DNA of 64,000 nucleotides from assembly GCF_011801125.1 (NCBI RefSeq), contig NZ_CP046171.1, positions 868,001 to 932,000 on the forward strand, given 5' to 3'. The notes under the pieces were generated by a model, which was given only the letters and a program-made list of their open reading frames with translations, was not told the DNA's origin and did not search any database. Both the position numbers and the translations under genes were made by a program. This document shows, in pieces, positions 21,646 through 58,533 of the stretch (positions within the stretch are counted from its first letter, which is position 1; each line of letters starts with the position of its first letter). The stretch comes from Nocardia brasiliensis. GTDB taxonomy: Bacteria > Actinomycetota > Actinomycetes > Mycobacteriales > Mycobacteriaceae.

Positions 21646-24600
21646 ATGGAAACTGCCCGTCGTTCCGCTCGTGGTAGCCGTCGCCGCAGGTCGGGCAGCC
21701 CGCTGTTCGGGCAGTTGCTGACCGCCGCCGTCGAATCCGCGGCCACCGAGGTCGCCATCCGATTCAACCCGTCGGGCCTGCCCGACGACGATCGCCAGCT
21801 CACCTACGGCCAGCTCGACGCCCAGTCGTCGCGGCTGGCCAGGGAACTGATCGAGCGCGGCGTCGGACCGGGCGACGTGGTCGCCATCGGCATCGCCCGC
21901 AGCTTGGAATCGGTGGTCGCCGTGTGGGCGATCGCGAAAACGGGCGCGGCATTCGTTCCGGTCGATCCTGCCTACCCGACCGACCGGATCAACCACATCC
22001 TGGCCGACTCCGGCGCTTCGGTCGGCCTGACCACCTCGGCGCATCGCCCGGTGCTCGGCACCGGCGTCTATTGGATCGAGCTGGACGACCCGGTGCAGTC
22101 GGCCCGCATCGCGGCCCGCCCCGAACACCCGATCTCCTACACCGACCGGGTGCGCCCGCTCGACGAGCGGCACCCGGCCTACGTCATCTACACCTCCGGC
22201 TCGACCGGTCGCCCCAAGGGCGTCGTGGTCACCCACAGCGGCCTGGCCGGTCTGGTCGCGGCCGAGCGCGACCACTACGACGTCACCGCCGACTCGCGGG
22301 TGCTGCACGTGTGCTCGCCGAACTTCGACGTCTCGGTGCTGGAGCTGCTGCTCGCGTTCTCCTCGGGGGCGACGCTGGTGATCGCGCCGCCGTCGGTGTT
22401 CGGCGGCTACGAGCTCGCGGATCTGCTTCGGCGCGAACGGGTCACGCACATGCTGATCACGCCGGGTGCGCTGGAGTCGGTCGATCCGGCCGACCTGGAC
22501 GACCTGCGCGTCGTCGTGGTGGCCGGCGACAAGTTCGGCCCTGAGCTGCTCAACCGCTGGGCGGGCGAGCGCGAGTTCTACAACGGCTACGGTCCCACCG
22601 AGGCCACTATCCTCGCCACGAGCACGCCGCGGCTGGCCCCGGACGAGCTCATCACCATCGGCACCGCGATCCCGGGAGTCGGTGCGTTCGTACTGGATTC
22701 GCGGCTGCGCCCGGTGCCCGCCGGTGTGGTCGGCGAGCTCTACCTCTCCGGGCCCGCGCTCGCGCAGGGCTACCTCGGTCGCCCCGGCCTCACCGCGGAA
22801 CGCTTCGTGGCCAGTCCGTTCGGCGCCGACACCGGCAACCCCGGCGGGCGGCTGTACCGCACCGGTGACCTGGTGCGCCGCGCCGAGGACGGCGGGTCCA
22901 TCGAGTATCTGGGTCGTTCCGACTTCCAGGTCAAGATTCGTGGCTTCCGTATCGAATTGGGCGAGATCGACAACGCGCTGACCGCGCACCCGGACATCGA
23001 CTACGCGGCGACGCTCGGCAAGACGCTGCCGTCGGGTGCGACCGCGCTGGTGTCCTACGTGCTGCCGCGCCCTGGAACCACCGTCGACACCGGACAACTC
23101 GCCGAGTTCCTCGGCGAATCCCTGGCCGCGTACATGATTCCGGCCGCCATCATGGTGCTCGACGAGATCCCGCTGACCCCGGTCGGCAAGCTGGATCGCG
23201 CGGCGCTGCCCGCACCGGTGTTCGCCGCCAAGGCTTTTCGCGCGCCGTCCACGCCGGTCGAGGAGATCGTCGCCGACGTGTTCGCGGCCCTGCTCATGGG
23301 GGGCGACGAGGGACGCGTCGGCGCGGACGACGACTTCTTCGAACTCGGCGGCAATTCACTGCTCGCCGCACAGGCCGCGGCCCGGATCGGGTCGGCGCTG
23401 AACGTGCGGGTGCCGGTGCAGTTGCTGTTCGAGGCCACGACCGTGGCCGCCCTCGCCGAACGGGTCGAGCGGCACGCGGGCTCGACCGCAGGCCAGGCAT
23501 TGCACGCGCGGCAACGACCGGCCCGGGTGCCGCTGTCCTATGCGCAGCAGCGGATGTGGTTCCTGAACCGGTTCGACCCGGCCAGCGCCGTCAACAACAT
23601 CCCGGCCGCCGTGCGGCTTTCGGGCCGACTCGACCTCGACGCGTTGCGCGCGGCCGTGCGCGACCTCGCCGAGCGGCACGAGGTGCTGCGCACGCGGTAC
23701 CCGGATGTCGACGGCGAGGGCTACCAGCAGGTGCTGCCGATCGGCGACCCGCAGGCCGTCCCGGAGTTCGTGGTCGAGCAGGCCACCGAGGACCGGCTGC
23801 CCGAGCTCGTCGCCGCCGCGGTGACCGCCGGATTCGACGTGACCGCCGCGCCGCCGGTGCGGGTGCGGGTGCTCGTGCTCGGGGAGACCGAGCACGTGCT
23901 GGTCTGCGTGGTGCATCACATCGCGGGCGACGGCTTCTCGATGGCGCCGCTGACCCGCGACCTGATGGCCGCCTACCTGGACCGGATGCGCGGGGGCGCG
24001 CCGGAATGGCCGCCGCTCGAGGTGCAGTACGCCGACTACGCGCTCTGGCAGCGCGAGGTGCTCGGCGCCGAGGACGATCCGGAATCGGTGCTGGCCCAGC
24101 AGATCGCCTATTGGCGGGCCGAATTGGCCGCGCTGCCAGAACAACTGGAGCTGCCCGCCGATCGCCCGCGTCCCGCGGTGGCGTCCAACCACGGCGCCAC
24201 GCTCGCCTTCGAGATCGACGGCTCGGTGCACGCCGCGCTGAGCCGGCTTGCGCACAGCCATAATTCGACCCTGTTCATGGTGGTGCACGCGGCGCTCGCC
24301 GTGCTGCTCGCGCGTCTGTCCGGTACCAGGGATATCGCCGTCGGCACGCCGGTGGCGGGCCGTGGTGAGGCCGCGCTCGACGACTTGATCGGCATGTTCG
24401 TCAATACCCTTGTGCTGCGCACGGATATCGATTCCGGCGCGAGCTTCGAGGAGCTGTTGCGTGCGGTACGCCAGACCGATGTCGAGGCGTTCGGCCACGC
24501 CGACGTGCCGTTCGAGCGGTTGGTGGAACTGCTGGATCCGGCGCGCTCGGCGGCCAGGCATCCGCTGTTCCAGGTGATGCTGACCTTCCAGAACCTGGCC

Positions 24601-56700: not shown

Positions 56701-58533
56701 GATCCGGCACTCGCCGCGGAGTATCCGACGTTGCGCCGGGTGTTCGCCGCCGGCGAGGCGCTCTCCGGCGAGACCGCGGCGAACTTCGCCGCCACGATCC
56801 CGACCGCCCAGCTGATCAACTGGTACGGGCCAGCGGAAGCCACCGTGGTCACCGACTATCCGGTGCAGGACACCGCCGTCGTCGCGGTGCCGATCGGCAC
56901 GCCGGTCGCCAACACCAGGGTGCACGTGCTCGACCGGCAGCTGCGTCCGGTGCCGCTAGGCGCCGCGGGCGAGCTGTACATCTCCGGCGTGCAGCTGGCC
57001 CGCGGCTATCTGGGCGCACCGGCGCTCACCGCGGAACGGTTCGTCGCGCACGAGGGCGGAACGCGGCTGTATCGCACCGGCGACATCGTGCGCTGGCACG
57101 GCGCCGCGCTGGAGTACTTGGGCCGCAGCGACTTCCAGGTGAAGCTGCGCGGCCAGCGGGTCGAACTCGGCGAGATCGAGACCGTGTTGCTCGGGCATCC
57201 GTCGGTGCGCCACGCGGCGGTCGCGCTCGTCCGAGGCGGCACCGGCGACCGGCTCGTCGGCTACCTGGTCGCCGCGCCGGGGGAGAGCATCGACAATGCC
57301 GAGGTGCTGAGCCACGCGCGCGGTGCGCTGCCGTCCTACATGGTGCCCGCCACGCTCGTCGTGCTGGACGCGTTGCCGCTCAACGCGAGTGGCAAGCTCG
57401 ACCGCAAGGCGCTGCCGGTGCCCGAGTTCACCGCGCGCCCGTACCGCCCGCCGACGACCCCGCTGGAACGGACCGTCACCGAGGTCTTCGCCGAGGTGGT
57501 CGGCGCCGAACAGGTCGGCCTGGACGACGACTTCTTCGATATCGGCGGCAACTCGCTGGTGGCGACCCGCGCGGTCAGCAGATTGCGCACGCTCACCGGC
57601 ACCGAGGTCCGGGTCCAGTGGTTCTTCACCGATTCGACCCCGGCGGCGCTGTCGGCGCGCGTACTGGCCGCGCTCGCGGGCGACCACGATTACGACCTGG
57701 AGTCGAACGCCGCGCTGGGCGTGCTGCTGCCGATCCGCACCAGGGTGCCGCACGACACCGCGCCCGCCGAGCCGCTGTTCTGCATCCACCCGATGTACGG
57801 ATTGTCTTGGTGCTACGCGGGTCTCGCGCGCTATGTGCCCCCGAGCACGCCGATCTACGGCCTGCAGTCACCCGCGCTGACCGAGGACGGCTACCTGCCG
57901 ACCTCGCTGGCCGAGATGGCGGACCGGTATGTCCGGGAGATCCGTGCGGTGCAGCCGGACGGGCCCTACCGGCTGCTCGGCTGGTCGCTCGGCGGTGTGC
58001 TCGCGCACGCCATCGCGACGGAGCTGCAGGCCGCGGGGGAACAGGTCACGTTGCTCGCCATGCTCGACAGCCACCCCGACATCGACGTGACGGACTTCCG
58101 CGCGGCGATCCGGGAGGCGCTGGCCGAACTCGGCATCGGCGCGCACGCGCTGCTGCCCGAGGACGGCGACATCCACGAGCTCAGCGAGGAGGCGCTCGCC
58201 GCGCTGCACGCGACCATTCCGCCGGACATGGCCGTGCTCACGCCGGAACGGGTGCGCCGGATCTACCGCAGCGCGGTGCGCTCGGCCGAGCTCATCGCCG
58301 AGCATCGGCCCGCGGTGTTCCACGGCAGGCTCGACTATTTCAGTGCGGTGGGCCACGACGCCGCGGCACTGAACTGGCATCCGTTGGTCGAGGGCCGTGT
58401 CGAAGATCACCCGATCGGGGTCGCGCACGATCAGATGACCTCCCCGGAGGCCTTGGCGGAGATCGGTCCGGCCCTGTCCGGCCTGCTCGATCCGCGTATG
58501 AGGGACACGGCACGTCGATCAGGTCTGACATGA
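41722..58533 (+). CDS. Non-ribosomal peptide synthetase 3: A-T-C-A-T-C-A-T-C-A-T-E*-C-A-T-TE
   Basis: 5603 residues from the ATG at 41722 (chosen by homology with NRPS2; an in-frame GTG lies two codons upstream). A1 ~179, T1 Ser567, C1 HHIAADG 751; A2 ~1234, T2 Ser1626, C2 1820; A3 ~2314, T3 Ser2734, C3 HHISADG 2918; A4 ~3411, T4 Ser3797 in FFALGGDSI, the carrier type that precedes epimerases; E domain ~3845-4260; C4 with HHILIDG at 4429, of the DCL type; A5 ~4894; T5 Ser5278; TE with Ser5422 in GWSLGG. Hand-read codes: A1 and A4 DALFVGGIMK, A2 DVWDFILVSK, A3 DLWHLILVSK, A5 DIWHFAWVVK; none securely assigned. The E domain lacks its catalytic HHxxxDG, reading NGLVVDD. A pentapeptide is predicted if it initiates itself. 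Confidence 0.94.
53254..54520 (+). other. Epimerization domain with lost catalytic motif (in NRPS3)
   Basis: It follows a GGDSI carrier domain and precedes a DCL-type C domain, the normal position. Residual E motifs: [12 protein letters not shown] (usually PLTPIQ), VGGFTTEYP (usually VGWFT..YP) and [14 protein letters not shown]. At the active site HHxxxDG is replaced by N3969-G-L-V-V-D3974-D3975, followed by the usual ISW. Both histidines are gone, so racemisation is not expected. Confidence 0.82.

Follow-up and report, generated by a model that had tools for sequence, protein, structure and literature searches.

Non-ribosomal peptide synthetases (NRPSs) encoded in a 64,000-nucleotide stretch of the Nocardia brasiliensis genome (assembly GCF_011801125.1, contig NZ_CP046171.1; the whole stretch is hereafter the window) include a protein, NRPS1, that ends in half of an adenylation (A) domain. 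This half domain, ΔA, is folded, acidic and under purifying selection, and is not debris or a broken end. With confidence just short of even, we propose a single assembly line in which a giant NRPS encoded elsewhere on the same contig would feed NRPS1, and NRPS1 would in turn feed either of two downstream proteins, NRPS2 or NRPS3, with ΔA as the junction domain. The proposal builds on the anatomy of the proteins and its conservation, a single ΔA clade, two classes of N-terminal tail, a corresponding gene order in two other genera (three genomes), and giants with the NRPS1 exit.

Organization of the NRPS locus

The genome is a single 7.95-Mb contig that holds the window. All three NRPS open reading frames (ORFs) are on the plus strand, where a preliminary description of this DNA had placed them; its domain strings, with NRPS1 lacking a thioesterase (TE) and both NRPS2 and NRPS3 beginning with an A domain and ending in a TE, are borne out by Pfam and by hidden Markov models (HMMs). 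Because the window itself supplied the seeds for these HMMs, domains that diverge from them may have been overlooked or wrongly labelled. Below, T, C and E are thiolation, condensation and epimerization domains.

21646..29025, plus strand: NRPS1, 2459 aa, A-T-C-A-T-C-ΔA; middle protein in the favoured reading
21646..21720, plus strand: Arg-rich N-terminal tail of NRPS1 (sequence)
26791..28146, plus strand: last C domain of NRPS1, HHxxxDG intact (sequence and HMM)
28192..29022, plus strand: ΔA, the C-terminal half A domain of NRPS1 (HMM, AlphaFold2); acidic, proposed junction or docking domain
29209..41439, plus strand: NRPS2, 4076 aa, A-T-C-A-T-C-A-T-C-A-T-TE; acceptor line 1 in the favoured reading
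29209..29277, plus strand: Arg-rich acceptor N-terminal tail of NRPS2, MTRPTRVRPARTRRPRVITLPQL, running into the A domain (sequence)
40651..41424, plus strand: NRPS2 thioesterase (Pfam and window-seeded HMMs)
41716..58533, plus strand: NRPS3, 5605 aa, A-T-C-A-T-C-A-T-C-A-T-E-C-A-T-TE; acceptor line 2 in the favoured reading
41716..41796, plus strand: Arg-rich acceptor N-terminal tail of NRPS3 (sequence)
53245..54570, plus strand: NRPS3 epimerization domain (window-seeded HMMs)
57715..58500, plus strand: NRPS3 thioesterase (window-seeded HMMs)

Pfam finds three AMP-binding, two Condensation and two PP-binding domains in NRPS1, and four AMP-binding, three Condensation, four PP-binding and one Thioesterase domain in NRPS2; the NRPS3 frame, listed with a GTG start and an ATG two codons downstream, has six matches to the Pfam C model, the E domain among them. 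C, A, T and TE domains thus follow one another in the modular order of an NRPS assembly line, with 2+4+5 = 11 modules across NRPS1, NRPS2 and NRPS3 and two TEs, neither of them in NRPS1. The early observation that NRPS2 and NRPS3 begin alike holds (identity of A1 74%, T1 71%, first C 71%), though modules 2-3 are more alike still (A 79-80%, T 89-90%, second C 87%); toward the end the values are 65% (third C), 42% (fourth A) and 64% (TE). Because the arrangement recurs across the genus, it is not due to chance. NRPS1 A2 and NRPS2 A4 carry codes, read by motif, that are Thr-like under the A-domain specificity code.

ΔA is a conserved half A domain

ΔA comprises the last ~277 residues of NRPS1 and matches the N-terminal part of an A domain. 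It stops at residue 2459, before A5, with the A5-A10 region and the C-terminal lid absent. The A3 motif was found in none of four ΔA sets (0/30, 0/20, 0/16 and 0/79, of which the sets of 30 and 79 share genomes) and in all full A cores (105/105). Because the A3 motif and the A5-A10 half are missing, ΔA would be unable to activate an amino acid. An AlphaFold2 model built from 44 sequences is confident (pLDDT 91.6, pTM 0.91), and Foldseek aligns it with adenylation domains over about half their length, in the N-terminal part only (TMq 0.69-0.80 among the best 50 rows listed), in keeping with an A-domain fold.

The ratio of nonsynonymous to synonymous substitution (dN/dS) is 0.18-0.36 for NRPS1-type ΔA in five genome pairs and 0.17-0.37 for the ΔA that ends the giant NRPS in six pairs, next to 0.09-0.14 for the giant's C domain. 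Charge over the first 250 residues runs from -15 to -20 in NRPS1-type ΔA (n=30), from -17 to -30 in giant-type ΔA (n=20) and from -18 to -29 in ΔA of other genera (n=16), against -3 to -17 with a mean of -9.9 in full A domains (n=105).

Within the genus, 139/148 genomes contain a ΔA match at E<=1e-40. The next-best matches in the N. brasiliensis genome itself are the giant's end (2.8e-34) and the first A of NRPS1 (7.0e-31). In a collection of named genomes, where 79 loci were kept of 115 confirmed candidates, all 79 are from Nocardia, with N. vulneris and N. brasiliensis closest at 88%. ΔA reaches its stop codon after 261-304 residues in 79/79 of them, and we rejected an assembly or frameshift artefact on this ground. 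An Arg-rich acceptor tail begins within 900 bp downstream in 74/79; none was found within that distance in the other five, one of which lies at a contig end. Genomes were picked by their ΔA matches, and such counts of ΔA followed by an acceptor say little about C-ended NRPSs that lack ΔA. In five of the nine genomes without a ΔA match, the first 451 residues of NRPS1 are present at 82-91% in every case (5/5), in frames of 527-2170 residues irrespective of contig ends.

Beyond the genus, the ΔA profile at E<=1e-30 matches 125/201 genomes of the family, a level that full A domains also pass. All 16 best-scoring loci outside Nocardia, from six genera, are ORFs that end in C-ΔA, and in 13/16 the next gene begins with an A domain, as a rule with an Arg-rich tail (exceptions L241, L245 and L246). 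When 40 ΔA and 31 full A domains are placed in one tree, every ΔA falls on the same side of a single branch (support 100/100); some rows have long branches, which calls for caution. ΔA across genera therefore looks like one lineage, within which giant-type and NRPS1-type ΔA are placed apart, and their acceptors likewise. An order-wide search at E<=1e-55 returned 5/150 genomes, all five from the window's own family, and was set aside: full A domains of those five genomes also pass this level, which cannot single out ΔA, and a distant ΔA could be missed.

A giant NRPS with a C-ΔA end

Among the matches listed, the N. brasiliensis genome has one other C-ΔA end. It belongs to a 14621-codon frame at 6.99-7.04 Mb of the contig, which encodes 12 A domains and begins with a C domain; the nearest other C domain listed lies at 6.36 Mb. 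Giant-type ΔA occurs in 20/24 same-genus genomes and in 0/16 genomes of other families, and the C-ΔA end is kept in 20/20 Nocardia loci examined.

The gene order in other genera points to a link between this giant and NRPS1. In G191, from one genus, and in G206 and G222, from another, a giant directly precedes a counterpart of NRPS1 of ~5550-5675 residues. These giants match the N. brasiliensis giant best (last A 73-75%, E 64-66%, C 64-69%), and the last C-A-T-C-ΔA of the proteins that follow them matches NRPS1, though for the A domain the Thr-type A of NRPS2 scores equally. The first A of the G191 counterpart is closest to the first A of NRPS1 (64% vs 57%); those of G206 and G222 were placed by the tree, in which all three group with the first A of NRPS1 (100/88). 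A TE protein follows or adjoins in G191 and G222, and the next frame in G206 is a short A-T-C piece. G329, from a third genus, has the same order of giant and counterpart with weaker matches.

Three Nocardia giants (G088, G130 and G097) themselves end in an NRPS1-type C-ΔA, their C domain being 63-67% identical to the last C of NRPS1 vs 54-57% for the next best. They were examined out of the four ΔA frames of >10,000 residues among the matches listed for the genus (the fourth is G140), G130 and G097 over their last ~3.8 thousand residues. Together, these data suggest that NRPS1 is probably a middle piece and not a starter. The preliminary description had cast it as the starter, a role at odds with its tail and first A domain, which are of the kind found on the protein that comes next after a giant in G191, G206 and G222, and with the NRPS1-type exit of the three Nocardia giants.

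One further A-first frame on the contig (1590216-1596998, 2261 codons) has an Arg-rich tail, a partial A before a full A and, by eye, a reductase-like C-terminus. As a general partner of the giant it was rejected, with its N-terminal part in 3/24 same-genus genomes vs 20/24 for giant ΔA.

Tail classes and multiple TE-ended lines

The tails of NRPS1, NRPS2 and NRPS3 carry a charge of +6 to +8 in 25 residues. When A-first proteins of the examined Nocardia loci are classed by alignment score against these window tails, with proteins that are not A-first or have <4 domains set aside, the class follows the protein's end: an NRPS1-like tail on 33/33 proteins ending in ΔA and an NRPS2/3-like tail on 44/44 ending in TE. 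Four A-first Nocardia proteins have neither end called; three have NRPS2/3-like tails and one, in G110 at the edge, an NRPS1-like tail. In other genera, 4/5 proteins that follow a giant carry the NRPS1 tail class.

In G038 and G094 the second acceptor tail is divergent (RASRxSGARARQRGKSLPQLL), and the preceding ΔA protein has 38 extra residues after ΔA. The two features could together represent a separate pairing class.

At least two TE-ended lines are present in 18/22 countable same-genus NRPS1 loci, and TE lines outnumber ΔA proteins in 15/22, equal them in 6/22 and are fewer in 1/22; two ΔA proteins occur in 7/22. The count leaves out G071 (broken into frames, with two ΔA proteins), the second ΔA protein of G011, two G088 regions and the giant's region; G106 is cut by the edge of the region read, and G042 and G120 each hold a further TE protein at the edge that was not counted. 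A shared donor would explain the 15 loci with an excess of TE lines, and the six equal loci also fit simple pairs. The branching assembly line first proposed for this DNA thus survives in part: one C-ΔA exit beside several TE lines of one tail class is usual, whereas NRPS1 would not be the starter, since a giant precedes its counterparts in G191, G206 and G222.

In some TE lines of G011, G046, G052, G072, G120 and G134 the TE is, unusually, followed by a further E/C-like domain.

A proposed assembly line and its alternatives

In the line we favour, the 12-module giant would start the chain, and its last C domain, ahead of its terminal ΔA, would pass the chain to NRPS1. NRPS1, also C-ΔA-ended, would add two residues, and its last C would join the upstream peptide to the opening A-T module of either NRPS2 or NRPS3; these would each finish and release a product of their own, of 18 residues via NRPS2 and 19 via NRPS3. 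At each protein-protein junction the upstream half would be a ΔA, itself unable to activate an amino acid, and the downstream half the next protein's Arg-rich tail together with its first A domain. Docking, transfer in trans, the use of both finishing lines and the product lengths are what we infer from the sequences. With NRPS1 in the middle, the 6-7-residue products first envisaged give way to ~18-19 residues. The A-domain codes suggest a Ser/Thr-rich product, and because the giant starts with a C domain the product would probably be acylated.

A wider proposal is doubtful in our estimation. It holds that this bacterial family has a new type of docking in which an acidic half A meets an Arg-rich tail and A domain, with two or more classes of pairing, and that in Nocardia a giant coupled in trans to NRPS1 and then to several TE lines makes ~18-19-residue peptides in combinatorial variety, Ser/Thr-rich and probably acylated, which a neighbouring mycolyltransferase relative might, speculatively, attach to the cell envelope. 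A junction and line of the kind proposed here would, if right, add a class of NRPS junction usable for joining assembly lines at the C|A boundary, would explain the orphan, unterminated look of NRPS genes common in Nocardia, and would mean that cluster-based mining misjudges product length, with the first twelve modules encoded elsewhere; one-to-many transfer between NRPS proteins would be directly testable.

Several observations weigh against the line from giant through NRPS1 to NRPS2 or NRPS3. Along the contig, 6.1 Mb separate the giant from NRPS1 (1.8 Mb if circular), and no A-first NRPS was found within 1.5 kb of any Nocardia giant (0/20); we place the giant in trans because of the orthology and the three fused giants. 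Giant-type ΔA is missing from four of the 24 same-genus genomes, all four of which nonetheless have an NRPS1-type ΔA match. The TE protein of G222 is on the opposite strand, the protein after the giant in G329 carries an NRPS2/3-like tail, and the C|A break seen in G156 comes with no ΔA. At the donor end, the second ΔA protein of G011 (8260160-8267713) is an orphan with no NRPS in ~58 kb downstream, and in the six loci with equal ΔA and TE numbers and the one with fewer TE lines simple pairing is possible. HHxxxDG is absent in 8/71 C domains preceding ΔA: seven Nocardia loci (L210, L212, L214, L221, L222, L225 and L226) have HR or HN for HH, and their exit C domain may be inactive, while no C motif was found in that of L195. 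The dN/dS of ΔA is the top value among NRPS1 domains in 4/5 pairs. The C-ΔA model is folded, with a pTM of 0.52 at which the packing of C on ΔA is not predictable, and we dropped any reading of that packing. Finally, tails of either class are basic, and tail class tracks first-A-domain phylogeny; common descent alone could yield the pattern, which is therefore no independent proof of docking.

The strongest alternative, which we consider unlikely, makes NRPS1 a true starter that feeds NRPS2 and NRPS3, with the giant belonging to an unrelated pathway. NRPS1 is indeed A-first without a C domain, the giant is located elsewhere in Nocardia, and the tail class common to NRPS2 and NRPS3 fits a shared donor. 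This leaves aside that the first A and tail of NRPS1 match proteins directly after a giant in three genomes of other genera, that the giant's own C-ΔA end is invariant in the 20 loci with dN/dS well below 1 in six pairs, and that the NRPS1 exit is present on three Nocardia giants.

It is improbable, in our view, that ΔA only stabilises C in place of the usual C-A contact, with pairing by T-C recognition and the Arg tails acting elsewhere or by charge. An ordinary module has, next after C, the same half of an A domain that ΔA represents, and the C-ΔA model is folded with uncertain packing, both of which such a role would allow; over the same length, however, ΔA exceeds nearly all full A domains in acidity, and the tails are basic. 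The separation of giant and NRPS1-type ΔA in the tree, mirrored by their acceptors, also speaks for pairing, with a purely structural role still compatible.

NRPS2 and NRPS3 might instead be separate lines that start on their own first A-T and make short peptides, NRPS1 serving one or neither. An A-first NRPS protein can initiate in principle, both proteins are A-first and TE-ended, and ΔA and TE protein numbers match in those six loci. Against this, one tail class is found on every TE-ended A-first protein of the examined Nocardia loci, TE proteins adjoining C-ΔA recur in other genera, and independent starters would need no conserved C-ended partner; we regard separate lines as improbable too. 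That ΔA is a leftover of gene fission without function is barely credible: it has lost the A3 motif and A5-A10 half, and with them any amino acid activation, and evolves faster than the catalytic domains, but it is retained in the genus and in other genera as one clade with dN/dS well below 1 and a confident fold.

Relation to known systems

Anabaenopeptin synthetases reportedly use alternative starter modules, one cluster thereby having more than one route; there the choice is said to be at the start, whereas in the window it would be at the end. Our comparison covered the accessible text of the articles cited here, including work on Rhodococcus (PMC5550956, PMC11433410, PMC8877126) and a Nocardia survey (PMC12153302). 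As described there, in albicidin, ramoplanin, enduracidin and syringomycin synthetases an inactive or missing A domain is complemented in trans by a separate A-T (PMC8949500). By analogy, a C domain on one protein would work here with an A-T on another, and the albicidin line likewise keeps a dead, non-functional A in the main line (PMC8949500). The supplier in those systems, however, is a single stand-alone A-T for one residue, whereas the complementing A-T here would open a whole downstream line; unlike theirs, the half A of the window locus is the very end of its protein. Fungal SidD/Nps6 also keeps a truncated, inactive A inside an NRPS, but lacks ~290 residues from its N-terminus and has its T loaded by another A of the same protein (PMC10192304), whereas ΔA keeps the N-terminal half and stands at the protein's end.

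COM, PAX and SLiM/β-hairpin docking domains are terminal regions that pair NRPS proteins, as we propose for this junction, and in the rhabdopeptide system one SLiM can recruit several acceptors, as NRPS1 might (PMC9113145). Known docking domains are short regions, with COM at E/C junctions and PAX at a PCP/C junction (PMC9113145), whereas the window junction is C|A, not E/C or PCP/C, and its C-terminal element is a ~280-residue half A. As far as the available text of that review describes the COM, PAX and SLiM/βHD classes, the junction fits none of them (PMC9113145). No description of a truncated A domain as an NRPS docking part was found in the literature searched, from which subscription journals were mostly missing; most papers matched to that term deal with E1 enzymes, and other mentions of a 'truncated A domain' in the text seen concern fungal SidD (PMC10192304), fusaoctaxin (PMC6563249) and a suspected sequencing error (PMC8692599). 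New here are a ΔA that is conserved and not debris, two tail classes that go with the protein's end, TE lines that often outnumber ΔA proteins, and a distant giant with C-ΔA.

Neighbouring genes

The following features flank the NRPS genes:

2070-2837, 6040-6654 and 8106-8179, left part of the window: matches to DDE and Tn3-type transposases, and tRNA-Arg(cct)
18059..19291, minus strand: nitronate monooxygenase, a neighbour named for the GCF 6 family
19129..20184, plus strand: M23 metallopeptidase, also a named GCF 6 neighbour
20353..21390, plus strand: protein with a weak LuxR-type C-terminal helix-turn-helix
58625..59767, plus strand: Esterase-family protein; among solved structures nearest to Cmt1 (E 3e-79), then PS1 and Ag85 mycolyltransferases
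61139..62167, minus strand: NAD_binding_4/Epimerase family protein
62243..63064, minus strand: enoyl-CoA hydratase family protein

Nitronate monooxygenase was formerly called 'nitropropane dioxygenase'. GCF 6 was described by Männle et al. (2020) as a conserved Nocardia NRPS family of 7-13 modules surrounded by nitropropane dioxygenase, metallopeptidase, esterase, epimerase and enoyl-CoA dehydratase genes (PMC7413640). With 11 modules, and with a protein of fitting family in the window for 5/5 of these types, the locus fits membership of GCF 6. No product is given for the family in the accessible text of that article (PMC7413640), in agreement with the earlier statement that no product was known for this layout. 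The same text treats GCF 6 as one assembly line of variable size; the word 'truncated' occurs 0 times in it, and ΔA, tail classes, several TE lines and the giant are not mentioned there (PMC7413640).

The Cmt1-like esterase together with the predicted Ser/Thr-rich peptide hints at a link to the cell envelope. A 4488-codon open frame on the minus strand (41626-55092), antisense to NRPS3, was taken as an effect of codon usage and not as a gene.

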